From a virus, in the IMG/VR virus record IMGVR_UViG_3300043773_000773, positions 1 to 61,604 of that record: DNA of 61,604 nt; one strand, given 5' to 3'. The translations under genes and the position numbers were made by a program. Shown one piece after another: positions 12,791 to 60,864 of the stretch. The notes under the pieces were generated by a model, which did not search any database, was not told where the DNA came from, and was given only the letters and a program-made list of their open reading frames with translations. How positions within the stretch are numbered: the first letter of the stretch is position 1; each line of letters opens with the position of its first letter.

Positions 12791-13767
12791 CTCATCCTCC
12801 CCAGGACATGCGCCGGAAACTGAAGTTCAACAACCTCGCCGTGCGTATCCGGCAACCACCAGTCGAGGCTTTCACGAAGACGAAGATCAGCCAGCGCCCG
12901 ATCCATGAGCCGCTGCCCTTCGGCAACGACGGCGTCTGGCAGCGTCACGACTTGGCAGTCGTGCGGCAGTGATGTGCTGATGACGATGAAGCGGAGGGGC
13001 GCTGGCTCCATGCCGCACGCCTCCATCCCCCTGCGATACCACGCATCTTGCAGGTGGTACTTGAAGTCAACGACGGACTTCCAGAACCCGGAGAGGATGT
13101 CTGCCTCTCGCGTGGTCTTGAGGTCGAGCGCCAAGCCGTCCGAAGTGATCGCGTCGAAGCGGCACTTGAGTCGGTCGCCATTGGCTTCCTCCCAGTACAC
13201 GCCCAACTCGTGATCCGCGATGCGGGAGATGAGTTCTGCTGCGGCTGGGTGGTTCTTGATCGCAGCCACCTCCGCGACGATCTGCGCCCGCTCCTTCGGG
13301 GAGACAATGACCGAACCGGCCGGAGCCTCGTTTTTGGCCCATTTCTCTGCGTCTTTGCCAACAAGCCCGGTGGCTGTTAGGGTTTCTGACGGAGGAACGA
13401 CCAGCGATTCAAGGAAGTCGTCGCCCAGTTCCAGCCATGAGTGAAGCAGCGTGCCGTGATCGGTGGCGCTGCTTGAGAACGGTGGCAGGGTCTTGGCTAT
13501 GTACCGCTGGTAGTACAGGACAGGAGAGTCAAGGAGCGTTTTGGCTCGACTGCACGACCTGTGCGTCTCGTTAGCGTGATAGTCGGCGTTCGCTTCTCCA
13601 CGCCGAATATCGACCCCTACATATTCAGCGTACGAACCAAAGCTAGTGTTCGTACATGCTGGTTGTAGGGGCGAAGGCGAAGCGATTGTGCCGGTCGAAT
13701 CGGCCCGACCAACGGTGCCGCTTCCATTTGCACCCTCGCGGCCCACCGTAGCTGGGGAAAAAAACAT
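12787..13767 (-). CDS. RecE/YqaJ-type 5'-3' exonuclease
   Basis: From about residue 60 the protein has the PD-(D/E)XK exonuclease pattern: H-G-T-L-L-H-S-W-L-E early, then G-L-A-L-D-L-K-T-T with catalytic Asp and Lys, and Y-H-L-Q-D-A-W-Y with the motif Gln and Tyr of RecE-like nucleases. It pairs with the ERF protein for double-strand break recombination. The only in-frame ATG (13767) shares the CATG palindrome with the divergent integrase ATG and adds about 50 low-complexity residues. A non-standard start nearer 13600 is possible. Confidence 0.75.
   Translation of the reverse strand: MFFSPATVGREGANGSGTVGRADSTGTIASPSPLQPACTNTSFGSYAEYVGVDIRRGEANADYHANETHRSCSRAKTLLDSPVLYYQRYIAKTLPPFSSSATDHGTLLHSWLELGDDFLESLVVPPSETLTATGLVGKDAEKWAKNEAPAGSVIVSPKERAQIVAEVAAIKNHPAAAELISRIADHELGVYWEEANGDRLKCRFDAITSDGLALDLKTTREADILSGFWKSVVDFKYHLQDAWYRRGMEACGMEPAPLRFIVISTSLPHDCQVVTLPDAVVAEGQRLMDRALADLRLRESLDWWLPDTHGEVVELQFPAHVLGRMR
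13630..13655. promoter_or_regulatory. 8-bp inverted repeat between exonuclease core and integrase
   Basis: GTACGAAC (13630-13637) and GTTCGTAC (13648-13655) are perfect inverted arms around 10 bases. The site lies in the N-terminal extension of the exonuclease frame, about 110 bases upstream of the integrase ATG. It could be an operator, an integrase arm or core site, or a regulatory hairpin. Confidence 0.4.
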
Positions 13768-14584
13768 GACTTTGAATCTACCTGTGATCGTGGAGCGCTA
13801 TCTGAACGGACGATGCGTGAGCAATGGCTACACCAACAACCTCAGGGCCGTCGCCCGGTCCTGCGGAACGATGTCAGTCGATGCCATAAATGCGTACTTG
13901 AAGCGCCGCATGGATGCCATCAAGCCAGTCACCGTTGCTACCGAGAGAGCCATGTTGGTTGGTATCTGGAGGTGGGCTTACGAAACCGGAGTAGTTAACG
14001 AGATGCCACGAGGAATCGTCAAGATCAAACCGGCGCGTAAGCCAACTAAGGCGTGGACTATAGAGCAGTGCTGTACGGGTGTCAATGGGACGTTCTCGCT
14101 GAGGGCGATCGTGCGACGGAAGAAAGTCCCGGTCGGCCTGTTCCTGCGCTGCTGGATGCTGCTGGGGTACGAGACTGGTGCGAGGATGGGGGATTTGTGG
14201 GAGATGCGGGGGGATGACATCGAGGACGGTGCGGCCCGCTGGTCGCAGCACAAGACCGGCGATCCGCATGTCAAGACGCTGTCGCCCAAGTGCATCGAGG
14301 CCGTGCAGCAGATGCTGGCGCTATCGCCGGACGGGAGGATTCTGGGCTGGGTGATGAGCGCAAACGCGGCGCGAGTGCGTATGCGGAAGTACCTGCGCAG
14401 CGTCGGCCTGAGCGGCACATCCAAGTGGCTGCGGCGATCTGGCGCCACCCACATCGAGATTGAGCATCCCGGAAAGGGCCGCCTGCACTTAGGGCATCGC
14501 ACCGTCGGGCTGGCCGAGAAGTCCTATATCGACTGGTCGCAGGTGCGCAGGGACATCCCCTGCACTCCCGTGCTACTCGAATAG
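13766..14584 (+). CDS. int: Tyrosine recombinase/integrase
   Basis: The ATG at 13766 follows a GGGG site and gives 272 residues. The catalytic domain has T-G-A-R-M-G-D-L (Arg140), a Lys in H-K-T-G (163), R-R-S-G-A-T-H (Arg224), L-G-H-R (His244) and K-S-Y-I-D (Tyr254), in the normal order and spacing. The N-terminal half looks like a short SAM-like core-binding domain. It is the only plus-strand gene inside the leftward region. Its 3' end overlaps the convergent virion gene by 12 bases. It implies integration or dimer resolution. Confidence 0.85.
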   Translation: MTLNLPVIVERYLNGRCVSNGYTNNLRAVARSCGTMSVDAINAYLKRRMDAIKPVTVATERAMLVGIWRWAYETGVVNEMPRGIVKIKPARKPTKAWTIEQCCTGVNGTFSLRAIVRRKKVPVGLFLRCWMLLGYETGARMGDLWEMRGDDIEDGAARWSQHKTGDPHVKTLSPKCIEAVQQMLALSPDGRILGWVMSANAARVRMRKYLRSVGLSGTSKWLRRSGATHIEIEHPGKGRLHLGHRTVGLAEKSYIDWSQVRRDIPCTPVLLE

Positions 14585-37168: not shown

Positions 37169-37508
37169 CGTTTTGCTTCCTTGCAAGGGCAACCTGTTCC
37201 GTCAGGCTGGCGATCTGAGACATCAACCCGTCGAGCTTCTTGGACTGGGCGGTCTGCGGCGAATACTCCCAGCATCCCCACTGCCGCCAATCGGCGTTCT
37301 CTTGCAGTCCGGGATCGTCGCGGTGCCGCACGGACGGCTTCTCCTGAAAGCCCGCATACGGGCTGAACGTCAGGATGCACACCGTGCTCACGCCCGGGCG
37401 CTGCACGATCCAGCCCAGCACGGGCTCCGCGCAGGTGAGCGGGTCGTGATACCAGTACACGCTGTCGCCAATCCGAACTGGCGGCTGGCTAAAGGATTCG
37501 GCTTCCAT
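37149..37508 (-). CDS. Conserved small phage protein between terminase and portal (119 aa)
   Basis: The start has GGAGCAAAG upstream and overlaps the end of the terminase gene. The first 90 residues are beta-rich with G-D-S-V-Y-W-Y-H-D-P and W-G-C-W-E-Y-S-P elements; the last 30 form a helix (S-Q-I-A-S-L-T-E-Q-V-A-L-A). The helix could bind terminase or portal. No known function. Confidence 0.6.
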   Translation of the reverse strand: MEAESFSQPPVRIGDSVYWYHDPLTCAEPVLGWIVQRPGVSTVCILTFSPYAGFQEKPSVRHRDDPGLQENADWRQWGCWEYSPQTAQSKKLDGLMSQIASLTEQVALARKQNGGTKNG

Positions 37509-39195
37509 ACTTTGCTCCTGACTGCGGGCCTAAGAAGATGAAGTCGTCGGCTTCTGCGGCCATGCGCTTTTTGCGCCTCCGCATCCAGTCGACGTACCAG
37601 GGGTCGGGACCGGCATCCACCTTAGGCTTGTGGTATCGAGGTCGATAGGCACACAAATACTCGAGGCACTGGCAGGCGTGGACTTCGCCCCGCGTATTGG
37701 GCTGGTCGGTCACGACGTACGCCCCAGCCACCAGTTGGGTCTTGTGCTTGTAGCGCCGCAATTCCCGCTCAAGGTCGGGGCAGGCGCTGCGCAGCACACG
37801 CAGCGTCGGCCTCCCTTCTGGGCGGATGTGGAGATAGTTCCGCACTGCCGACATGCGGGCCTGAACGTCGTCGCACCCGGCAATAAAGCTGTGGCCGGTG
37901 GTCTGGCTGGAGACCCCCTGCTTCTTGAGTTCCTCCGTGTACAGTTCGACCGGGAGCCTGCCAGAGCCGATTTCGCGGAGGCGCCCGCCGTGCATGTCGA
38001 TGAGGAAAGCGTAGAAGTTCTGCCCGACGCACTTCTCCCTCATCTTCTCGCCGAAGATGATGGCATTGCAGTTCCGGATGTAGAGCTGGTCGTAGATCAG
38101 GAGCATCGACTCGTCTGGCGGCACGGCTGCGAAAAGCACGGAGGTGACTGCGTGTCCAGGGTCGATGGCGGCGTACCGGCACCAGTCCGAAGGCACCACG
38201 AGATTCTCTAGCTCCGTCCTCTCGTAGCCGTGAACGTGCATGGCGAACGTGGGGTAGCAGAGGATCGAGTCGCTGATGAACTCGCCCTCGCTGCGCATCC
38301 GCAGCACATCCTCGCCAAGCGCCGACCACGCCTCGATACGCTTGCGCTTTTCCCCGTCGTCGATGTGAGGGTTGTCAAGAAAGCGCAGCACGAACTTAAC
38401 GATCGAGGGATTCTCGGCGCCATCCTCCGCGAGCTTGTCGGCGCGCTCCGCAAGCGACTGGAGGGAGTCGTTCTTCGAGTGCGGCATGGCCGACCATGCG
38501 AAGACGCCCTTGCGGTCGGAGAGGCGGGCCTGCATTTCAGGAACCCACGCATCGCCGTTGTTAACGTCCTCGTCGATGTGGACGCGGTTGGCCTGCCAGC
38601 CCTGCGGCGGCTCGCCTTCAGACGAGAAGAAATAAATCTGCCAGCCGTTCGTCAGCGTGCAGGACTGGATGTACCGGGCAGACTTCAGAATCCACGACTT
38701 CTTCGCCACCATGCGCGGCGGGATCAGCGGGGGCGCAGGCTTGGCGTCCTTCTCGCGCGCTGCGTCTGTCACGGGGTTGTACGCGCGCCACTCGCCTGTC
38801 TGCTCGTCCTTGATGATCTTGAACGCCCCAGCCATGAACAGCATGGGGTAGACGACAAGGCCGATGTGCTTCCAGTCCTTGCCGACGATGGCGAGGATGC
38901 CGTCCTTTTCCGGGTACTTGCCGTGCGGGTCTTTGCCGCACACAGCCCGAGCGTCCTCTACGAACGTGCAAAGCGACTTGCCGGAGCGATTGCCGCCCAG
39001 AACCAGAATCTCACTCGCCTTGCACTCGTGGACTTCCTCCTGCTTCGGGGTGGGCATGTAGAGCTTCAGCGCCTCGATCCGGCGGCTCGCCAGTTCCGCC
39101 TGCATCTCCTTCAACTCGCCCTGCTGGAACGCCCCCAATCGCTTGACGGACGGCAGCGGCGAAATCTGCGGGGGTTTCCGGCGCGACTTGGACAT
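37489..39195 (-). CDS. terL: Terminase large subunit
   Basis: The 568-residue protein shows the ATPase Walker A G-G-N-R-S-G-K-S (67-74) and Walker B V-H-I-D-E-D (205-210). The nuclease domain has Y-A-A-I-D-P-G-H (Asp345) and F-L-I-D-M-H-G (Asp400) as likely metal ligands. It translocates and cuts DNA during packaging. The ATG is preceded by GGGAGGATTCCTCA and lies 185 bases inside the upstream gene, an unusually long overlap. Its type among headful or cos terminases cannot be set from this alone. Confidence 0.9.
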   Translation of the reverse strand: MSKSRRKPPQISPLPSVKRLGAFQQGELKEMQAELASRRIEALKLYMPTPKQEEVHECKASEILVLGGNRSGKSLCTFVEDARAVCGKDPHGKYPEKDGILAIVGKDWKHIGLVVYPMLFMAGAFKIIKDEQTGEWRAYNPVTDAAREKDAKPAPPLIPPRMVAKKSWILKSARYIQSCTLTNGWQIYFFSSEGEPPQGWQANRVHIDEDVNNGDAWVPEMQARLSDRKGVFAWSAMPHSKNDSLQSLAERADKLAEDGAENPSIVKFVLRFLDNPHIDDGEKRKRIEAWSALGEDVLRMRSEGEFISDSILCYPTFAMHVHGYERTELENLVVPSDWCRYAAIDPGHAVTSVLFAAVPPDESMLLIYDQLYIRNCNAIIFGEKMREKCVGQNFYAFLIDMHGGRLREIGSGRLPVELYTEELKKQGVSSQTTGHSFIAGCDDVQARMSAVRNYLHIRPEGRPTLRVLRSACPDLERELRRYKHKTQLVAGAYVVTDQPNTRGEVHACQCLEYLCAYRPRYHKPKVDAGPDPWYVDWMRRRKKRMAAEADDFIFLGPQSGAKYGSRIL

Positions 39196-49987: not shown

Positions 49988-51235
49988 ATGCCTACCGAGA
50001 ACACCAACACGGACGAAGTGGTGCGGGATGAGTACGGGTTCGATGAGAACGGCATCCACACCAACGGCACGGAGTTCAACGACGCCGGGTTCGACCAACA
50101 TCACCTTCACCGCGACACGGACACCGAGTTCGATGAGTCCGGCCGCACCATCAACGGAACGCGGTACAACGTCGATGGCTACGACGTCGAGGGCTACGAC
50201 CGCAACGGCTACGACGAGGATGGGTACGACAGTGACGGCTGGGACCGCGACGGCTACAACACCGAAGGCTACGACGCCGACGGCTATGACTGCGACGGGC
50301 AGGACTCGTGCGGCAATACCCGCTGCGACAACGGCGACTGCGACGACGACTACTGTGACTGCCGCACTCGCGGGTCGGACGAACTGCTCGACTCCGATGC
50401 CTGCGTGCTGGAGGAAACACGCTGGTGCCAGTACCGCTACAAGCGGACGGCCCAACTCGTAGCCTTCGAGTTCGAGTGCATCGCCCACGACTGCGCCAAC
50501 GACGGGGCCGAGCGGCTGATGGTGCCGTTCGATGAGGCGTACGACGAACTGATCGGTCACACCGCAGGCTGCGGCTCGATCGCCAAGCACGACGGTAGCC
50601 TGCCGACCGGCAAGGGCGTCGAGTTCGTCACCGTGCCGATGCTTCTCGACGAACACCGGCGCGTGCTGGCGAAGGCATTTCCCGGCGGTCGGCTCGGCGG
50701 CGGGCATGTCAGTGCGTGGAACCACACCAAGTGCGGCATGCACGTGCATCTCAACCGCCGCAGCATGGGCAACCTCACGCTCGGCAAGCTCCTGTGCTTC
50801 ATGCACCAGAGTTGCAACCGCTCCTTCCACATCGACATCGCTGGCCGTGAGACAACCTACGCCAAGTTCCAGGGGCATCGCTCGTTCGTGAGCAACGGCC
50901 TGCCCGTGAAGGCGGATCACGGCGAGAAGTATTCGGCCCTCAACATCAAGCCGCACACCGTCGAGTTCCGCATCTTCCGCCCGTCCACGCAGCTTCCCAC
51001 GATCCTCAAGAACCTGTGCTACTGCCTTGCGGCGCGTGAGTTCTGCGTGAGCGTGTCTGCCATGCGGTCGAGCATCACGTGGCAGGAGTTCCTCAAGTGG
51101 CTCGGCACCACCGATGCCCGGCTCCGCTACCGCGAGCTTGATTCGTGGCTCCGCAACCGGCAGTCGGACTACGGCATGTACTACCGCGCCCACGCCAAGC
51201 CGCTGCCCAAGCCCAAGCCGCTCGGCGCAGCCTGA
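49988..51235 (+). CDS. Amidoligase with an N-terminal D-x-x-G-Y-D repeat domain
   Basis: The 415-residue protein has two parts. Residues 13-105 contain a run of hexapeptides of the form D-x-x-G-[YFW]-[DN], followed by a Cys/Asp-rich stretch (C-G-N-T-R-C-D...C-D-C). Residues 155-400 match the amidoligase (COOH-NH2 ligase) family: A-F-E-F-E-C, G-V-E-F-V-T, C-G-M-H-V-H-L-N, and late T-V-E-F-R-I-F-R. Such enzymes use ATP to join an amine to a carboxyl group of a metabolite or protein side chain. A glutamine amidotransferase lies directly downstream. The Asp/Glu-rich repeats might be its own substrate in cis. Confidence 0.75.
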   Translation: MPTENTNTDEVVRDEYGFDENGIHTNGTEFNDAGFDQHHLHRDTDTEFDESGRTINGTRYNVDGYDVEGYDRNGYDEDGYDSDGWDRDGYNTEGYDADGYDCDGQDSCGNTRCDNGDCDDDYCDCRTRGSDELLDSDACVLEETRWCQYRYKRTAQLVAFEFECIAHDCANDGAERLMVPFDEAYDELIGHTAGCGSIAKHDGSLPTGKGVEFVTVPMLLDEHRRVLAKAFPGGRLGGGHVSAWNHTKCGMHVHLNRRSMGNLTLGKLLCFMHQSCNRSFHIDIAGRETTYAKFQGHRSFVSNGLPVKADHGEKYSALNIKPHTVEFRIFRPSTQLPTILKNLCYCLAAREFCVSVSAMRSSITWQEFLKWLGTTDARLRYRELDSWLRNRQSDYGMYYRAHAKPLPKPKPLGAA

Positions 51236-51281: not shown

Positions 51282-52196
51282 ATGTGCCTTGCAATCCACA
51301 AGCCCGCCGAGACTCGCCCCGACTGGATCGCCTACGCCAACGGCTACCGCAGCAACCCGCACTCGTGGGGCTTTGCCGCAATCCACGACGGACACCTCGT
51401 TGTCATGCACGGACTCGGCTCGTTCGATGAGTTCCGCCTCGCCTTCGAGCCGTATGCCGACTGCCAAGCCATCATCCACTACCGATGGGCCACGCATGGC
51501 AAGACCGACCTCGACAACTGCCACCCGTTCATGGTCAGCAACAGCCTCGCCATGATCCACAACGGCATCGTCAGCATCGAACGCAACGTGAACAGCGACC
51601 GCTCCGACACGTGGCACTTCAACGAGCTAATCCTCAAGCCCATGCACGAGCGCGACCCGGACTTCTTCCTGCGTGGCGACATGATCTACACGCAGGAGAT
51701 GGCTCACGCCGACAGCAAGTTCGTGTTCCTCCGGGCCGACGGCGACTTCGCCATCTGGAACAGCGGCGAGGGTGAGGTTGCGGCCGACGGCCACTGGTAC
51801 AGCAACTCTTCGCACAAGTCGCTGGCCCGCATCGGCTACGCGACCAGCAAGTACACGGACTCGACTGGCTGGCGCGACATGTCGCCCAGCGCCCGCTCCC
51901 CGCTGACGTACGCCAGCCGCAAGGCAGACGATGCCGACCGGCGGTACGAGCAGGACGACCTCATCGGCGGCTGCTCGCTCGAGGCCAGCGTCGAGCCGGA
52001 GACTGGCGTCACGCTCATCCGCGACCCGTACTACGGCGAGTACGACCCGATCGAGCATGCCGACGACGACGAGGAGCAACTGGCCGACATGATGTGGTCC
52101 GACCTCCGCACCTATGGCATCTCATCCGGGACGCTCAAGGAGGTCTACCACATGTTCGGCAACTGGGGCATCCAGGCTCTGTACGACTGCATGTAA
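51282..52196 (+). CDS. Class II glutamine amidotransferase
   Basis: The ATG at 51282 (CAGGAG upstream) places Cys2 (M-C-L-A-I) as the N-terminal nucleophile after Met removal. The class II motifs follow: G-F-A-A-I, R-W-A-T-H-G-K, N-C-H-P-F, and I-H-N-G-I. The C-terminal half is acidic and unique. These Ntn enzymes release ammonia from glutamine. Next to an amidoligase, this pairing has been predicted elsewhere to supply amino groups for a ligation reaction. The partner and product in this phage are unknown. Confidence 0.8.
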   Translation: MCLAIHKPAETRPDWIAYANGYRSNPHSWGFAAIHDGHLVVMHGLGSFDEFRLAFEPYADCQAIIHYRWATHGKTDLDNCHPFMVSNSLAMIHNGIVSIERNVNSDRSDTWHFNELILKPMHERDPDFFLRGDMIYTQEMAHADSKFVFLRADGDFAIWNSGEGEVAADGHWYSNSSHKSLARIGYATSKYTDSTGWRDMSPSARSPLTYASRKADDADRRYEQDDLIGGCSLEASVEPETGVTLIRDPYYGEYDPIEHADDDEEQLADMMWSDLRTYGISSGTLKEVYHMFGNWGIQALYDCM

Positions 52197-54160: not shown

Positions 54161-54197
54161 AGGGTCGCTTCCACTTCAACCTATCCTTGACGACTAG
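54033..54197 (+). CDS. Unknown 54-residue acidic protein
   Basis: AAGGAG precedes the ATG at 54033. The product M-T-L-K-E-L-M-D-R-V-L-A-M-L-P... is acidic and helical. It overlaps the C terminus of the LexA-like frame by 128 bases. Confidence 0.45.
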   Translation: MTLKELMDRVLAMLPDAMFDETGDGEVIVMTGKRAHPEEDWNEGSLPLQPILDD

Positions 54198-54214
54198 GTG
54201 TAGAACTGTACACT
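54187..54214 (+). promoter_or_regulatory. Sigma-70-like promoter overlapping a GTGTA/TACAC operator
   Basis: TTGACG (54187-54192) and TACACT (54209-54214) are spaced by 16 bases. The inverted arms GTGTA and TACAC (54198-54213) lie across the -10 region. An AGGAG follows at 54223. The gene just upstream codes for a LexA-type winged helix, a natural candidate for the repressor. Confidence 0.45.
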
Positions 54215-54234
54215 CACCACACAGGAGAGAGGGG

Positions 54235-54411
54235 ATGCCTTACCCCACCGCAACGATGACTCTCACCCCACGAGAACTCGCACTCGTAATCGACGCCCTG
54301 CATGAGTCGGCAGAGGATCGTCAGGAGTTCGATGAACTCACCCAAGCAGCAGAGTTCACGACGCTGCAACGCAAGTTCGTGAAGGCCCACGACTCACTCA
54401 TCACCCACTAG
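54235..54411 (+). CDS. Unknown 58-residue protein, first gene after a predicted promoter
   Basis: The ATG at 54235 has AGGAGAGAGG upstream. Helical and acidic: L-T-P-R-E-L-A-L-V-I-D-A-L-H-E-S-A-E-D-R. It directly follows the candidate promoter at 54187-54214 and precedes the MoxR/VWA block. Confidence 0.5.
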   Translation: MPYPTATMTLTPRELALVIDALHESAEDRQEFDELTQAAEFTTLQRKFVKAHDSLITH

Positions 54412-54420
54412 GAGATACCC

Positions 54421-55290
54421 ATGTCACGAGACAACATCACGCTCGGCGCTGGTCTTGGCGGCATCTGCCTCATGTCCACCCGCAGGCAGCGGAGGGACAC
54501 GGTCTACGATGCCGCCGTCCTGGCTGGCATCGAGCGGTTCGTACCTCCCACCCCAGCCGCAACCACCACGCTGCGGTCGGCCATGCTGGAGGAGGGCGCT
54601 CGCCTGTACGGCAGGCGGCGCAAGCAGCCCATCACTGTGCGGCAGCTCGATGAGCCGAACTCATTCGAGTGTGTGCGAGTCGTGCCAAGCGTGGCCCGCA
54701 ACGACTACCGCTTCCTGTTCTCGGCAAGCATCGACCCGCAGTGGCAGGTCACGATCCTCGACGCCAGCATGGACGTAAGCCGCAACGTGCTGTGGGATGC
54801 CGTCACCCAGCAAGTCGATGTGATGCGGCTGTACCTACCCGGCCCTGTCATCTCGCAGGTACTTGTCAAGGGGCTGCGCTCGTGGGGTGCGCTGTCGCTG
54901 AAGGACGACGGCGGCGCATGGTTCCTCGACGGCCGCTACCTTGAGAAGTATCGTGACTTCGCCCGCCACGCGCGGGGGGTCGACGGCCCCAAGTTTACGG
55001 TGACGCAGTTCGAGATCGGCTCCGACCCTGACACGGTGGCGCACGTACTCGACTGCCTGCACGAAGAGGTCACGGCTGGCGTGCAGGAGATCATGTCCGA
55101 TGTGATGGCAGCGGAGGGTGGCATGTCCGATCGCTCGATCAACTGCCGCACCGAGCGGGCCAACACGTTCCTCGCAAAGGTGCAGCAGTACGAGAGCCTG
55201 CTCGGCAGGCCGCTGCCCGAACTGACCGATGCTGTCGAGCAGACCAAGCAGGCGCTCGCCGTGAATCGCCTGCTGGCTTCGTCCATCTGA
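54421..55290 (+). CDS. Unknown 289-residue protein at the head of the MoxR/VWA block
   Basis: Preceded by AGGAG. No signal peptide, transmembrane segment or known motif is seen. The middle is beta-rich (Y-R-F-L-F-S-A-S-I-D-P-Q-W-Q-V-T-I-L-D-A), then a conserved-looking G-G-A-W-F-L-D-G-R-Y-L-E, then long helices with Thr/Ala/Glu. Proteins found beside MoxR and VWA genes in other genomes often serve as partners or substrates of that pair. That is the best clue to its role. Confidence 0.5.
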   Translation: MSRDNITLGAGLGGICLMSTRRQRRDTVYDAAVLAGIERFVPPTPAATTTLRSAMLEEGARLYGRRRKQPITVRQLDEPNSFECVRVVPSVARNDYRFLFSASIDPQWQVTILDASMDVSRNVLWDAVTQQVDVMRLYLPGPVISQVLVKGLRSWGALSLKDDGGAWFLDGRYLEKYRDFARHARGVDGPKFTVTQFEIGSDPDTVAHVLDCLHEEVTAGVQEIMSDVMAAEGGMSDRSINCRTERANTFLAKVQQYESLLGRPLPELTDAVEQTKQALAVNRLLASSI

Positions 55291-55312
55291 ACCACCACAC
55301 AAGGAGAATGCA

Positions 55313-55777
55313 ATGGGATACTACGTTCGCACTACCGGCAGCAACTTCTATGTTGCGCAGAGCAAGAAGAACGCAGCGTACGAAGCGCTGTGCGCACTGA
55401 ACCAGAGGGACGACCTCAAAACCGGCGGGTCGTTTGGCGGCAACCTCAGCGGAGACAGCCCGCGCCCTGCTGGCCTCGATCACCACCCGAGCCGGTGGTT
55501 CTCGTGGATGGCGGCTGACTACCCGAGCAAGTGCAAAGACCTGAAGCAGGTGCTTGAGGAAGTCGGCTTCGATGTGGTCGAGGACGAGGCGGGCAACGTC
55601 ACGGGCCTGCACTACGACAGCAAGACCGGGCATGAGTCTCTGTTCCTGTCGGCACTCGCCCCTTTCGTGCGAGACGGCTCGCACATCGACTGGCAGGGCG
55701 AAGAGGGCGAGCACTTTCGGTACGAGTTTTCTGGCGGCCGCATGCTGGAGCGTGACGGACGCATCGTCTGGGCTTGA
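55313..55777 (+). CDS. Conserved protein of the MoxR/VWA block (154 aa)
   Basis: AAGGAG precedes the ATG. The sequence has Y-Y-V-R-T-T-G-S-N-F-Y, then W-F-S-W-M-A-A-D-Y-P-S-K-C-K-D, G-F-D-V-V-E-D-E-A-G-N-V, L-H-Y-D-S-K-T-G-H-E. I recall this family from many phages and bacteria as hypothetical. Its position directly before MoxR suggests a link, by context only. Confidence 0.6.
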   Translation: MGYYVRTTGSNFYVAQSKKNAAYEALCALNQRDDLKTGGSFGGNLSGDSPRPAGLDHHPSRWFSWMAADYPSKCKDLKQVLEEVGFDVVEDEAGNVTGLHYDSKTGHESLFLSALAPFVRDGSHIDWQGEEGEHFRYEFSGGRMLERDGRIVWA

Positions 55778-55806
55778 TACACACTCACACTAGGAGACTA
55801 TTCATC

Positions 55807-56910
55807 ATGGCTCGTGCAACTCTCGGAAACGATCCGGCTTTCATCGCTGCGCAGGTTGTTCCCACGCTCGTGCGTGGCGGCACCGGCGTCGGCAAGTCCT
55901 CCACGTGGGAGGCACTGGCTCGCGCGCTGGAGCGGACGTTCGTTCCGCTGCTTGGCGCTACTCACTTGCCAGAGGACTTCTCTGGCTATCCAACCCCTGA
56001 CCACAAGGCTCGCGTCACACGCATGATGGCTTCGTCGTGGGTGGAGAAGACGCGGGACGGCAACGCCCTCGTTCACGTGGACGAGGTGACGAACGTGGCG
56101 CCCGCCACTCAAGCCGGACTGCTCTCCGTAATCTCGGAGCGGCGAGTGGGCGACGAGGTGATGCCAGAGTCCACGATCGTCGTGGGTTCGTGCAACCCAC
56201 CGGAACTGTGCCCCAACGCAGTGCCGCTGTCGCCCGCCATGCGGGCGCGGTTCTTCCACCACGACTGGGTGGTGGACTACGAACACTGGTTCGAGGGGCT
56301 GCGTGCCGGGTGCAACTGGACAGCGCCCGAGTTCCCCGTCGTGCCGGAGCATTGGGTCGACATGCTCCCGCAGTTCGGCTCGCTGGCTGAGGCATTCCTC
56401 CGCTCGGCACCAGACTGCCGGGAGAAGCTGCCGACCGACGACGAAACCATGTCGTTCCCCAACCCCCGCACGTGGACGTACCTCGTCAAGTGCTTCGCCG
56501 CTGCGCAAGCCTGCGGCTTCGAGCGCAAGCACCCGATGTACCGGGCGCTGGCAATGGGCTGCGTCGGCGAGGCGGCGGGTGGCGAGTTCCTGCGGTACTG
56601 GCACAACCTCGACCTCGCCAACCCGGAGTCCTTCCTGTCTGGCGACGAGAAGTATGAGTACGAGAAGCGACCAGACGCCAACATCTGCCTGCTCACCGGG
56701 CTGGTGCGGTGCCTGCGTGACAACACCAGCAAGGAGCGGTGGCTCAACGCTGCGAAGGTGTTCATCACCATCGGCGAGCAGGAGATTGAGTCGTTCCTCA
56801 TGCAGTTCAAGTCCTTCTGGAACCCCGTCGGCAAGGGTGGCGTGCGGCCCGATGGCTGGTCGCCGCCGAAGGATGTTCTCGCCAAGCTGATGGGCCTCGT
56901 TCAGTCCTGA
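55807..56910 (+). CDS. MoxR-family AAA+ ATPase
   Basis: I start at the ATG at 55807, which gives 367 residues. Walker A is G-G-T-G-V-G-K-S (24-31), Walker B L-V-H-V-D-E (88-93), sensor 1 G-S-C-N (127-130), and an arginine finger R-A-R-F-F (145-150). The sequence between fits MoxR, the group that works with VWA proteins. MoxR ATPases remodel or activate target proteins, often for metal insertion. The next gene encodes the VWA partner. Confidence 0.8.
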   Translation: MARATLGNDPAFIAAQVVPTLVRGGTGVGKSSTWEALARALERTFVPLLGATHLPEDFSGYPTPDHKARVTRMMASSWVEKTRDGNALVHVDEVTNVAPATQAGLLSVISERRVGDEVMPESTIVVGSCNPPELCPNAVPLSPAMRARFFHHDWVVDYEHWFEGLRAGCNWTAPEFPVVPEHWVDMLPQFGSLAEAFLRSAPDCREKLPTDDETMSFPNPRTWTYLVKCFAAAQACGFERKHPMYRALAMGCVGEAAGGEFLRYWHNLDLANPESFLSGDEKYEYEKRPDANICLLTGLVRCLRDNTSKERWLNAAKVFITIGEQEIESFLMQFKSFWNPVGKGGVRPDGWSPPKDVLAKLMGLVQS

Positions 56911-56932
56911 CCACACACACAAGGAGAATCCC

Positions 56933-58402
56933 ATGACGCCACGACAACTGCTTGGGCAGGCGAGGGTACACACCTTCGAGTACCTGCCCTACCTCGCAAG
57001 CTATGTCTATAGCCTGCGCGAACATGAGACGCCCGGCATCGGCACCGCTGCGGTAGACGATGCGGGCAATCTCTACTGGTGCCCGGAGTACATCACTTCG
57101 ATCGGCAAGGAGACGGCCTCCTACGTGATCCTGCACGAGACGCTCCACCTCATCTTCGATCACCACAAGAGGGCGATCGAGATGCTGGGCGAAGACATGA
57201 CGGAGACGGAGCGGTACATCTGCAACATCGCCGCCGACCTCGTGATCGAGCAGACGCTCCACATGATGCGGCACCTGCGACCAGAGGGTGCCGTCTGTCT
57301 TGGCGCAAAGGTTCCCAAGCTCGGGATCAAGCTCGACTTCCCAGAGAACAAGTCGATGCAGGAATACTACCGGCTCATCACCGAGAAGATGAAGTCCAAC
57401 CAACAGCAACAACCGGAGGGCAGCGATGGAGACGATGAGCAGCAACAGGGTTCGGGCGAGTCGCCCGACGGGAGTGGCAGCGGCGATGGCGATCGCAATG
57501 ACAACAACGGCGGACAGGATATGGGAGCAGGTGACGACGGAGGCGGCTCGGGGAACGACGATGACGGCACTGAGGCGGACGGCAAGGAAGATGCGTCTGG
57601 CAACGGAGCGGGGTCGCCTTCGGCTGGGCAGGGCAAGGCACCGCAAGCACCCTGCTCGCCCGGCTCCGGCGGGTCGTGCGCCGACGGGCAACGGCGGCCC
57701 TATGAAGTGGAGAGCGACGGGTCTTGGGAAGCGTACGGCGAAGACATGGCCGCCGCGAAAGCCGAAGAAGCGATCGCAGAGATAGAGGCATCCAAGCCCG
57801 GCACTGTACCCGGCAACATCAAGGAGGCACTCAAGCAGAAGCTGCGGCCCCAGCCAGACCCGTTCGATCAGCTTCGCTCTGCGGTCTGCACAAGCGTGGC
57901 CTCGCCGGTCGGGGGCCGGGAGTTCACCCACCGCAGGCTCTCCCGCAAGCAACCGCCGGGAGACAACGAGCCGCTGCTGCACGGCCGCATCTGCATGCAG
58001 CCGAAGGCAGTCGTCATCGTTGACACCAGCGCATCCATGATGCTCCGGGAAACGAAGGCGAAGGCGCTCTCGGTCATCGGGCAGGGGCTGCGCAAGCTGC
58101 ATCGAGTCAAGGTGTACTGCGCCGACACCCACGTGCGGAGCAACGCCATCGTCTCCACGACCAAGCGGTTCGAGTGGTACGGCGGCGGCGGCACCGACAT
58201 GGCGAGGGCGATCGAGGAGGTGGACCGTACCGAGAAGCCGGACTCCATCATCCTCGTGACCGACGCCGAGACGGACTGGTGCGCAGCCAAGCCACGCGCC
58301 CGCGTGGTCGTGGCCTACACCGGCAAGCCCGACTCGCACTGGCACAACGCCATCCCCAAGTGGTGCCGCACTGTGGTGCTGGAGAAAGGAGGGGCAGCAT
58401 GA
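56933..58402 (+). CDS. Metallopeptidase-like/VWA protein (DUF2201 type), MoxR partner
   Basis: The 489-residue protein has an N-terminal HExxH module (H-E-T-L-H, residues 68-72, with H-H at 77-78), like DUF2201 proteins. A disordered Gln/Gly/Asp-rich linker follows (about residues 155-250). The C-terminal VWA domain has its MIDAS motif D-T-S-A-S (364-368), with G-G-G-T-D near 421 and a T-D-A-E-T-D near 444. It pairs with MoxR 22 bases upstream. The VWA domain probably presents a target to MoxR, while the zincin part may cut it or be degenerate. Confidence 0.8.
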   Translation: MTPRQLLGQARVHTFEYLPYLASYVYSLREHETPGIGTAAVDDAGNLYWCPEYITSIGKETASYVILHETLHLIFDHHKRAIEMLGEDMTETERYICNIAADLVIEQTLHMMRHLRPEGAVCLGAKVPKLGIKLDFPENKSMQEYYRLITEKMKSNQQQQPEGSDGDDEQQQGSGESPDGSGSGDGDRNDNNGGQDMGAGDDGGGSGNDDDGTEADGKEDASGNGAGSPSAGQGKAPQAPCSPGSGGSCADGQRRPYEVESDGSWEAYGEDMAAAKAEEAIAEIEASKPGTVPGNIKEALKQKLRPQPDPFDQLRSAVCTSVASPVGGREFTHRRLSRKQPPGDNEPLLHGRICMQPKAVVIVDTSASMMLRETKAKALSVIGQGLRKLHRVKVYCADTHVRSNAIVSTTKRFEWYGGGGTDMARAIEEVDRTEKPDSIILVTDAETDWCAAKPRARVVVAYTGKPDSHWHNAIPKWCRTVVLEKGGAA

Positions 58403-58899
58403 AGAACGTGACTCTAGAGACGATGCCGCCGCCAGACTACCAGCCGTTCACCCATGACACGTGGGTAGAACAGGCATGGGTTCCGGCGTATCCGCTGTTC
58501 GCCAAGCGGGCGAGGCGATTCGCCATCAGGCTGCGCCGGGAACTGGCCGACATGAGCATGCCCGCCAGACTGATATTGCAAAGCGCCCCAGAGCTTCCGA
58601 TCCACCAGATACGCCTGGCCCCGCAGTCGCTTCAACTGATCGTCATCGCAGACAGCCCTACGCCCGGATACGGAACCGGCCTGTGGGTCTGGGTTGCGAT
58701 GCACAGCAACGAGTCGCGCCGCCACTTCGGCATCGACTACGACTACGGGCTGACCCACTGCCAGTACCTTGCCACGCGATGCGGCGCCAATATCAGCGAC
58801 CCATACTTCAACGACTACATGCGTTGGTGTTGCGCCAGAGACGCCATCAACGGCATCAAGGAGTGGGTCATGTCACATCTCTACATCCCTGGAATCTAG
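58399..58899 (+). CDS. Unknown 166-residue protein coupled to the VWA gene
   Basis: Its ATG overlaps the stop of the VWA gene (ATGA), implying coupled translation. It follows GGAGG. The sequence has W-V-E-Q-A-W-V-P-A-Y-P-L-F and several helices, and a C-terminal R-W-C-C-A-R-D-A-I-N-G-I. A candidate substrate or adaptor of the MoxR/VWA pair. Confidence 0.5.
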   Translation: MKNVTLETMPPPDYQPFTHDTWVEQAWVPAYPLFAKRARRFAIRLRRELADMSMPARLILQSAPELPIHQIRLAPQSLQLIVIADSPTPGYGTGLWVWVAMHSNESRRHFGIDYDYGLTHCQYLATRCGANISDPYFNDYMRWCCARDAINGIKEWVMSHLYIPGI

Positions 58900-58910
58900 G
58901 AACCCTACCC

Positions 58911-59096
58911 ATGTACTCATTTCAGAAGCGCCTCGACATCATGCTCGGCGCCGAAGCGACTCCCTTCATCTGGTTCTGTCGGGCATGCTGGTTTGCATTC
59001 GCCTGCTACACGGCAAGCAACCCAGCCGCCACCTACTACATCGCGCCGCACCTGTGGGTGATCGGCGTTGCCCTGTACTACTTCTACCCCGCCTAA
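58911..59096 (+). CDS. Two-span membrane protein (61 aa)
   Basis: Hydrophobic segments F-I-W-F-C-R-A-C-W-F-A-F-A-C-Y and L-W-V-I-G-V-A-L-Y-Y-F-Y are separated by a short polar loop. It could be a holin-like or superinfection-exclusion protein. It lies between the MoxR/VWA block and the recombinase. Confidence 0.5.
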   Translation: MYSFQKRLDIMLGAEATPFIWFCRACWFAFACYTASNPAATYYIAPHLWVIGVALYYFYPA

Positions 59097-59105
59097 GGAG
59101 AAGCC

Positions 59106-59846
59106 ATGCCTATCGTCTATGCCTACGGTCGCGCCAGTACCGGGCGTCAGACCATCACCGAATCGCACCAGCGGGCCACGTGCGAAGAGCACATCCAGCG
59201 GGCAATCCTCCCCGCCGGGTTCACCTACGGCGGCTGGCTCTATGACTCAGCCACCAGCGGCAGCAAGCCCATGTTCGAGCGGGACGAGGGCCGCAAGCTG
59301 TGGGCACTCGTCCAGCCAGGAGACAAGATCGTGTGGGCCAAGCTCGACCGTGCATTCCGCTCGGTCGTGGACGCAGCCCAGACGATGGCGCTGCTGCACC
59401 GCAAGGATGTGACGTTCTCGTCGCTGGACTTGGGCCTCGACACCAGCACGCCGATCGGTAGGTGCGTGTTCACTATCCTGTCTGCGTTCGCAGAGCTAGA
59501 GCTTGAGTTCATCCGGCAGCGCACCCGCGATAGCCTTCGCGCCAAGCGGGCCGATGGCAAGCCGTACAGCAAGCACGCCCCCATCGGCTGGAAGAAGATC
59601 GGCACCGGCAAGGACTCGTACTACATGCCAGACCCGCTCGAGAGGTCGCAGGTAGCCGAGATGCTGGCCCTGCGGCAGTCTGGCGCCAGCCTGGAGCGCA
59701 TCACCAATCACATGTACAACGTGACGCGCAGCAACGGCAAGCGGTGGAACATCAACTCCATCTCGCAGGCGCTCAGGGCAGCAAAGGCTCGCTTTGCAAA
59801 AGAGTTTGCAGCATCTCCAAAGCGGCGGCGAGCCGTCGCCGTATAG
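59106..59846 (+). CDS. Serine recombinase (resolvase/invertase type)
   Basis: AAGGAG precedes the ATG. The catalytic domain starts Y-A-Y-G-R-A-S-T-G-R-Q, with Ser11 as nucleophile. It continues with the conserved L-D-R-A-F-R-S and the R-x-R motif in F-I-R-Q-R-T-R. A C-terminal part with R-R-R-A-V-A is basic. Total length 246 is short for a large serine integrase and fits resolvases or invertases. The 3' end overlaps the minus-strand sigma gene by 74 bases. With the tyrosine integrase at 13.8 kb the phage has two recombinases. Confidence 0.85.
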   Translation: MPIVYAYGRASTGRQTITESHQRATCEEHIQRAILPAGFTYGGWLYDSATSGSKPMFERDEGRKLWALVQPGDKIVWAKLDRAFRSVVDAAQTMALLHRKDVTFSSLDLGLDTSTPIGRCVFTILSAFAELELEFIRQRTRDSLRAKRADGKPYSKHAPIGWKKIGTGKDSYYMPDPLERSQVAEMLALRQSGASLERITNHMYNVTRSNGKRWNINSISQALRAAKARFAKEFAASPKRRRAVAV

Positions 59847-60294
59847 TGCGCGGGTCGCACTTGGACTGCTCGCCAATCTCCCGCATGCTCATCCCCTTGA
59901 AGAACCGGAGGTGGATCAGCTTGCGGGACTTGGCGGGCAGTCTGGCGATAGCCGTCTGGAGCTTGGTCGACATGCTGTTCGGGGCCACCGCAAGCGCTTC
60001 GGCAAGCTCCAGCGGCACCCTGTCGGGCGAGTCGTACCGGGCGCGGCGGTTGCGGTCTATCTCCTTGAGGAGCGCATTGCGCACCGCCATTGAGAAGTAC
60101 GTCGTGATCTTCGACTGGGCCGGATCATAGGTCACGGCGGCGCGGCAGACGGCGAGGTACGCCACGCTTTCTGCGTCAATGCTAGCGACCTGCTTGCGCA
60201 GCGTGGGATAGCGGCACCGGAAGGCGACGATCGCCTTCGGAACTACCTCCATCGCCTGCTCGGCAAGCTGCCGCTGTTCATCCGTGAGCCGCAT
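59773..60294 (-). CDS. Sigma-70-family RNA polymerase sigma factor (ECF-like)
   Basis: The 173-residue protein has region 2 (residues 35-85: Y-L-A-V-C-R-A-A-V-T-Y-D-P, then T-Y-F-S-M-A-V-R-N-A-L-L-K) and region 4 (residues 115-165: L-P-A-K-S-R-K-L-I-H-L-R-F-F-K-G-M-S-M-R-E-I-G-E-Q). Region 3 is short, as in ECF-type factors. It should direct host RNA polymerase to phage promoters. It points leftward in the origin-like end region. It may recognise the GGRCATRAATCC elements. Confidence 0.8.
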   Translation of the reverse strand: MRLTDEQRQLAEQAMEVVPKAIVAFRCRYPTLRKQVASIDAESVAYLAVCRAAVTYDPAQSKITTYFSMAVRNALLKEIDRNRRARYDSPDRVPLELAEALAVAPNSMSTKLQTAIARLPAKSRKLIHLRFFKGMSMREIGEQSKCDPRTIRRRLAAALEMLQTLLQSEPLLP

Positions 60295-60558: not shown

Positions 60559-60864
60559 CTACTTCGGCACCTTCCGTGCCCGAACCTGTCGCTTTGTGAC
60601 ACTTTTCGCCACTGTGTGTGGAGTCGTTTCGCGGAGCCAATCGGCCTGCGTCTCTTCCTCGCCGTACCGCATCGCGGCCTGGGCATCGAAGGCGTCGGCC
60701 CGCCCCAGGTCGAACCACGCAGGATAGTGGCGAAGGATGCGTCGGGCTTCCTCGCGGATGTCGCGGCGGATGCCCTTGATGCCGCCAGCGTATGGCGAGG
60801 CCAGCCTCTGGAGGAACGACTTGGCGTAGATCACCGCTCGCGTCCGTTCGTCTGGCATCGTCAT
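60559..60864 (-). CDS. BPSL0761-like protein, complete (101 aa)
   Basis: Complete version of the gene truncated at the left end. It has the D-E-R-T-R-A-V start, an A-R-R-I-L-R-H-Y-P-A-W-F-D centre and a basic C terminus. The family is common in phages and their hosts and has no known function. The palindrome at 60917-60931 lies just upstream. Confidence 0.65.
   Translation of the reverse strand: MTMPDERTRAVIYAKSFLQRLASPYAGGIKGIRRDIREEARRILRHYPAWFDLGRADAFDAQAAMRYGEEETQADWLRETTPHTVAKSVTKRQVRARKVPK

Follow-up and report, generated by a model that had tools for sequence, protein, structure and literature searches.

What a MoxR-type ATPase and a metallopeptidase fused to a VWA domain do for a virus is the question raised by a gene cassette near the end of IMG/VR virus record IMGVR_UViG_3300043773_000773, all 61,604 bases of which were analysed and are referred to below as the window. 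AAA/VWA pairs are found in many phages, the N4 group included. In the window the pair is accompanied by an upstream gene for a 289-residue protein (U289), and we propose that the three form a core in which U289, a divergent homologue of the Pfam family DUF6744, would be the dedicated adaptor or client of MoxR-VWA remodelling machines carried by mobile elements; on the analysis presented here we consider this proposal evenly balanced. The open reading frames (ORFs) of the locus are true genes and not chance ORFs, since 27 related contigs keep the VWA protein (57–80% identity to the window) and MoxR (70–95%, the upper value coming from a 22-residue fragment).

The pair itself is real as judged from its predicted domains and motifs. 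The MoxR-type AAA+ ATPase (55807–56910, + strand, 367 residues from ATG) matched phrog_1297 and Pfam AAA_5 (E 6.3e-09, 36.4 bits against a cut-off of 22), while the VWA protein (56933–58402, + strand, 489 residues) matched DUF2201_N (E 3e-22, 80 bits, cut-off 23.2) and DUF2201 (E 6.1e-12, 46.2 bits, cut-off 26.4), the latter a family reportedly named in open-licence literature, including a phage genome paper. This protein is laid out as an N-terminal HExxH metallopeptidase domain, an acidic low-complexity linker and a C-terminal VWA domain with a metal ion-dependent adhesion site (MIDAS), and its gene follows that of MoxR after 22 bases; the ORF layout and this spacing agree with an earlier note on the same DNA, made from the sequence alone. 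That note had named loss of the ATPase and MIDAS residues in homologues as an observation that would count against a MoxR-VWA module, and no such loss was seen in the ten MoxR and ten VWA proteins aligned (window included): Walker A (GGTGVGKS) and Walker B (VDE) of MoxR, the HExLH, DTSxS, GGGGT and TDA motifs of the VWA protein and its MIDAS residues D364, S366, S368, T421 and D444 were all invariant. According to passages of PMC7159879, a helix-2 insert of the AAA+ core is a defining trait of the MoxR clade. Besides phrog_1297, the PHROGs matches at the locus were phrog_38862 (U154, described below) and phrog_1314, whose label 'HNH endonuclease' agrees with no domain that Pfam detected.

The nearest plasmid relatives of the window pair are actinobacterial and possess the HExxH motif; with a MoxR profile of the group, those of Streptomyces, Mycobacterium and Rhodococcus scored 110–140 bits, and the best of the phage loci tested reached 77 bits. 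Among phages, the window MoxR matched Schitoviridae homologues at about 20–25% identity, and the HExxH motif was mostly retained in distant pairs, with altered residues there in RM378 and ZX86. Loss of the N-terminal peptidase was suspected in five contigs, where matches began at residue 222, and was rejected because L054 and L056, the two loci inspected, both encode an intact protein with HEVLH, the gap corresponding to the linker. An ORF of Vibrio phage PJN101 (7379–8680) was likewise rejected as a VWA protein, and no count given here uses the alignment (A5) that contains it. Two further observations concern the pair in other records: the VWA protein of a human-gut phage scaffold (L060, 9000–10841) seems to have a second, N-terminal metallopeptidase-like stretch, and contig IMGVR_UViG_3300005528_000063 (loci L002 and L018) has two different MoxR genes, one at each end, 86% and 76% identical to that of the window, the result of a duplication or of mixed sequences in the assembly.

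Relatives of the cassette were collected by scans with MoxR, U289 and the VWA protein, which gave 28 distinct contigs; 27 were tallied, with multiple loci of one contig merged (L072 and L073 belong to tallied contigs), and one, L071, was checked apart. In the tally, VWA was present in 27, MoxR in 26, a serine recombinase in 25, U166 in 24, U289 in 22, a 61-residue ORF (TM61) in 12 and U154 in 4. The five contigs lacking U289 have their first base within MoxR or VWA, or 75 bases ahead of MoxR, too late to show it, so that U289 could be tested in 22 contigs; the order U289-MoxR-VWA was kept in all 22 and in L071. U289 was 41–79% identical to the window protein. Across the tallied contigs, with start positions extrapolated, the gap between U289 and MoxR ranged from 87 to 608 bases and that between MoxR and VWA from 25 to 1117 bases, a figure inflated by the linker in five contigs. 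Contig scans of cellular genomes with MoxR and with a DUF6744 protein turned up no relatives.

Assignment of U289 (54421–55290, + strand) to a family came from profile comparisons. Six of eight U289 members matched Pfam DUF6744 (PF20529) at E≤1, the best at 4.5e-6, with 13 bits for the window protein and 26.3 bits for the best relative; because these scores lie under the gathering cut-off of 27 bits, U289 is named a divergent homologue and not a Pfam member. In hhalign, 18 U289 proteins and 12 DUF6744 proteins aligned over 267 columns (97.5% probability, E 6.7e-12), and on this profile evidence we conclude that U289 is a divergent homologue of DUF6744. The same family emerged when the U289 of a relative was searched by tblastn against 72,556 plasmid records, the single record returned (E 0.9) being a Brevibacillus marinus plasmid gene annotated 'DUF6744 family protein'. 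PF20529 run against three whole records of the group matched two, both under the cut-off, and gave no match in the whole record behind L005. Against phages, a relative's U289 gave just three weak matches at E≤10, of which that in Gordonia is antisense to the genes annotated at the site.

The AlphaFold2 (AF2) model of U289 (pLDDT 87.5) matched an unnamed viral protein (E 4.9e-16) and a protein of Haloarcula vallismortis tailed virus 1 (E 1.7e-10); according to passages of PMC7911831, that virus has a vWA gene close to one for an AAA ATPase. Structural matches of U289 to XisI-like entries in the PDB (best E 0.045, Z 6.0–6.7) and three-helix-bundle matches of residues 202–289 (Z up to 9.5) were too weak or generic to use. 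No paper naming DUF6744 or PF20529 was found in the open-licence literature.

The Brevibacillus marinus plasmid led beyond the phage group, as an AAA ATPase gene lies three genes past its DUF6744 gene and a VWA gene two genes further, all on the same strand. With this protein as query, DUF6744 was found in 15 plasmid and 3 phage records, 12 of which were opened (H88–H91, H97 and H100 were left out): ten plasmids, two each from Brevibacillus, Alicyclobacillus, Nocardia, Rubrobacter and Streptomyces, and two viruses, Moorella phage MTATph1 and Halovirus HCTV-5. AAA ATPase and VWA genes neighbour DUF6744 on the same strand in 11 of the 12 (plasmids 10/10, viruses 1/2). Each of these 11 records has exactly one match to the RavA-type MoxR model (PF20030), always the DUF6744 neighbour, and all eleven neighbouring VWA proteins possess D-x-S-x-S and TDG. 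DUF6744 comes first in the Bacillota plasmids, the Moorella phage and the window, and last in the actinobacterial plasmids. Four of the AAA neighbours were compared with Pfam and matched bpMoxR (3e-60 to 1.9e-41) and AAA_lid_8; of four VWA neighbours so compared, three matched VWA_2 or CoxE, the Nocardia protein matching no VWA model. As a control, E. coli RavA and ViaA matched the same models, RavA reaching 1.5e-56 with bpMoxR. Since RavA matches too, the plasmid matches are not diagnostic of beta-propeller conflict systems, and their use as a link to ternary systems was dropped.

We conclude from these comparisons that DUF6744 has become associated with two different types of MoxR-VWA pair and that many pairs do without it, a distribution that is easier to reconcile with a specificity factor or a client than with a core part of the motor. 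In the proposed machine, conceived by analogy with other MoxR-VWA pairs, a MoxR ring would employ the VWA protein as a co-chaperone. The VWA MIDAS would hold an acidic side chain, either of U289 itself or of a client brought in by U289; hydrolysis of ATP would remodel that client, and the fused HExxH domain could cut it. The client would probably be a protein of replication, nucleotide metabolism or host takeover and not a part of the virion. The observations beneath this proposal are the homology of the proteins, the invariant catalytic residues, the conserved triad, the occurrence of DUF6744 beside a second pair type and the plasmids negative for terminase described below.

Several points weigh against it. 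The 23 contigs with U289 are one phage lineage, and their synteny is not independent evidence. None of the 11 VWA proteins beside DUF6744 on the plasmids and in the Moorella phage has an HExxH motif, and by their sequences these pairs are RavA/ViaA-like, that is, of a type other than the window's. The AAA_5 gene closest to DUF6744 in HCTV-5 lies some 19 kb away. No DUF6744 was found on the four plasmids examined that bear the closest (HExxH) pairs, nor, at E≤0.01, in 11 phage records from outside the group that carry MoxR or VWA; at the loci of these 11 records a combined profile gave nothing under E 0.2, and a search with just the DUF6744 profile nothing under 0.016. The reading of the core as a triad draws on sequence and synteny, and on that footing we give it an even chance.

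The plasmids also bear on the standing proposal for such pairs, namely that they fold and trim structural proteins during virion assembly. This was put forward for the group 2.2 jumbo phages, which have the same architecture, with reference to a tail chaperone of the archaeal virus ATV (in the passages of PMC7824862 concerned), and it finds an echo in phage CBB, where the MoxR-VWA pair adjoins structural genes. However, none of the ten plasmids bearing DUF6744 triads gave a credible match to the large terminase family phrog_2 (one 14-bit match crosses six stops), and the same search matched the Moorella phage, HCTV-5 and PJN101; absence of this single family leaves room for some phage-plasmids. 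The cassette of the window also stands apart from structural genes: large terminase (37492–39195, − strand), portal and major head genes lie at 35–42 kb on the − strand, and the cassette is inside a block on the + strand whose genes are mostly small. In the N4-like Pectobacterium phage Possum, moreover, genes for RNA polymerase, a helicase and DNA polymerase lie near the pair. We judge virion assembly unlikely as the explanation for the window, and unlikely as a shared role of DUF6744 triads because ten DUF6744 plasmids have no credible large terminase.

On the gene neighbourhoods analysed we instead favour a remodelling machine that serves replication or takeover and has DUF6744 as its adaptor or client, given that dnaN, primase-like and SNF2/DEAD helicase genes recur near DUF6744 on the plasmids, that these plasmids are terminase-negative and that the Possum pair adjoins replication and transcription genes. 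Ribonucleotide reductase genes are also near DUF6744 in the Moorella phage and HCTV-5, and they lend something to another explanation, in which the machine would activate one phage or plasmid enzyme, such as ribonucleotide reductase, by handling a cofactor or an inhibitor; rubisco activases and RavA-ViaA are MoxR-VWA pairs that reportedly act on enzymes. Among the triads opened, however, no enzyme gene was common to all neighbourhoods, and we hold maturation of a single enzyme to be distinctly improbable.

The earlier note had also regarded the flanking uncharacterised genes as candidate partners of the pair, and co-occurrence with the pair, the criterion that the note itself had set, separated them. 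U289 stood, being retained in every contig where it could be seen, and U154 (55313–55777, + strand, 154 residues, phrog_38862) did not: it occurs in 4 of the 27 relatives and in nine Arthrobacter phage records, and in one of these phages, Rizwana, it follows a primase/helicase gene in a genome with no AAA_5 match. The flanking genes are thus not one system, since U154 is rare in relatives and present elsewhere without AAA_5; on this distribution U154 is a passenger, an optional insert outside the core. A search of viral contigs with U154 found no relative. U166 (58399–58899, + strand, 166 residues) overlaps the end of the VWA gene by ATGA in the window, which bears out the translational coupling that had been read there; its position is kept in 24 of 27 contigs and its C-terminal half is conserved, and the sequence is fast-evolving (29–41% identity to the window) and poorly modelled by AF2 (pLDDT 68). 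TM61 (58911–59096, + strand) is a hydrophobic and aromatic 61-residue ORF that had been taken for a two-span membrane protein, a description unsupported by its Kyte-Doolittle profile, which peaks at just 1.12 over a span of 19 residues. The serine recombinase that follows (59106–59846, + strand; Pfam Resolvase, 2.7e-29) is a neighbour and was not assigned to the cassette.

Elsewhere, the window encodes an Erf-like annealing protein, a helicase and a sigma-factor-like protein (59776–60294, − strand), and blastn of the region against 50,697 phage records gave no matches. A tyrosine-integrase-like protein (13757–14581, + strand) is encoded in the same phage genome as the serine recombinase. Similar genes, both on the − strand and starting MTMPDERTRAVIYA, lie one at each end of the record (1–207 and 60559–60864). 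A 15-base element, CCGCTGCGGAGTCTG, is present on the + strand in nine copies with at most one mismatch between 46721 and 49923, mostly directly after a stop codon and ahead of the next gene; with two mismatches allowed, 0.46 copies would be expected by chance in the whole window. The element is also present in relatives, where it precedes MoxR in L015, L022, L024 and L072, and it is possibly a phage-specific promoter or regulator site. The gene at 49988–51235 (+ strand) gave a weak Amidoligase_2 match (E 0.0038, under the cut-off) and has an N-terminal 15-base repeat array encoding GYDxxGYD-like units; the next gene noted (51282–52196) resembles those of class II glutamine amidotransferases. 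The host may be an actinobacterium, because the relatives of the terminase and of U154 in named phages are all from Arthrobacter phages and actinobacterial plasmids carry the closest relatives of MoxR.

Among known systems, one to set beside the window is the MoxR-vWA ternary conflict system, described in passages of PMC7159879 as a MoxR, a vWA protein and variable partners. The window likewise has a third protein, here DUF6744-like, and a conflict module, an ATPase system with a set threshold directed at host factors or superinfecting elements, would be consistent with this layout and with the faster evolution of the partner (41–79% identity for U289 against 70–95% for MoxR), the published systems also having variable partners (PMC7159879, same passages). 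Yet the window MoxR gave no match to bpMoxR (PF20030) at E≤1; PADLOC returned nothing credible among nine proteins (one weak, unrelated match); Pfam and PHROGs found no effector domain in U289, U154 or U166; a Pfam scan of the window proteins gave no VMAP, iSTAND, FtsH or beta-propeller name, Pfam coverage of these being possibly partial; and the plasmid matches to bpMoxR lose their diagnostic value with RavA. The suggestion of a ternary system made in the earlier note is therefore borne out in form, in that a third partner exists, and not as a published conflict system; the analysis lends no support to a guard against superinfection, and a conflict role is in our estimation very doubtful.

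The pair as such is known from a 2021 report on jumbo phages (PMC7824862), where, in the passages concerned, MoxR and VWA genes are likewise adjacent and the VWA is fused to an N-terminal metallopeptidase; the lineage of the window differs in its size of about 62 kb and its DUF6744-like third gene, and PF20529 searches found no DUF6744 in phages CBB, G and SCTP-2. N4 gp24 and gp25, an AAA ATPase and a vWFA protein listed as of unknown function in the relevant part of PMC2784036, are alike in kind, the Schitoviridae homologues of the window MoxR being about 20–25% identical to it; PF20529 found no DUF6744 in PJN101 or Possum, and no paper joining MoxR with Schitoviridae or N4-like phages was found in the open-licence literature. 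E. coli RavA-ViaA shares the combination of MoxR ATPase and VWA partner, but the window MoxR lacks PF20030, AAA_lid_8 and LARA matches and its VWA protein matches DUF2201, not VWA_CoxE. The plasmid and Moorella loci come closest in the third gene, which is homologous, adjacent and on the same strand, with the window's order in the Bacillota plasmids and the Moorella phage; they differ in their RavA-type MoxR, in a VWA protein without HExxH and, in the actinobacterial plasmids, in having DUF6744 last. That DUF6744 is the dedicated third subunit of a phage and large-plasmid MoxR-VWA class, separate from the four ternary conflict systems already published, paired with two MoxR-VWA types and serving replication or host takeover and not virion assembly, is a tentative proposal to which we give somewhat less than an even chance. 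A third gene common to phages and plasmids offers a handle on the client, the triads on plasmids argue against the virion-assembly proposal for this type, and DUF6744, an unstudied family, becomes the protein to test. Compared with all of these systems, the novelty lies in the third gene, the DUF6744-like U289; the MoxR/metallopeptidase-VWA pair beside it was already known.

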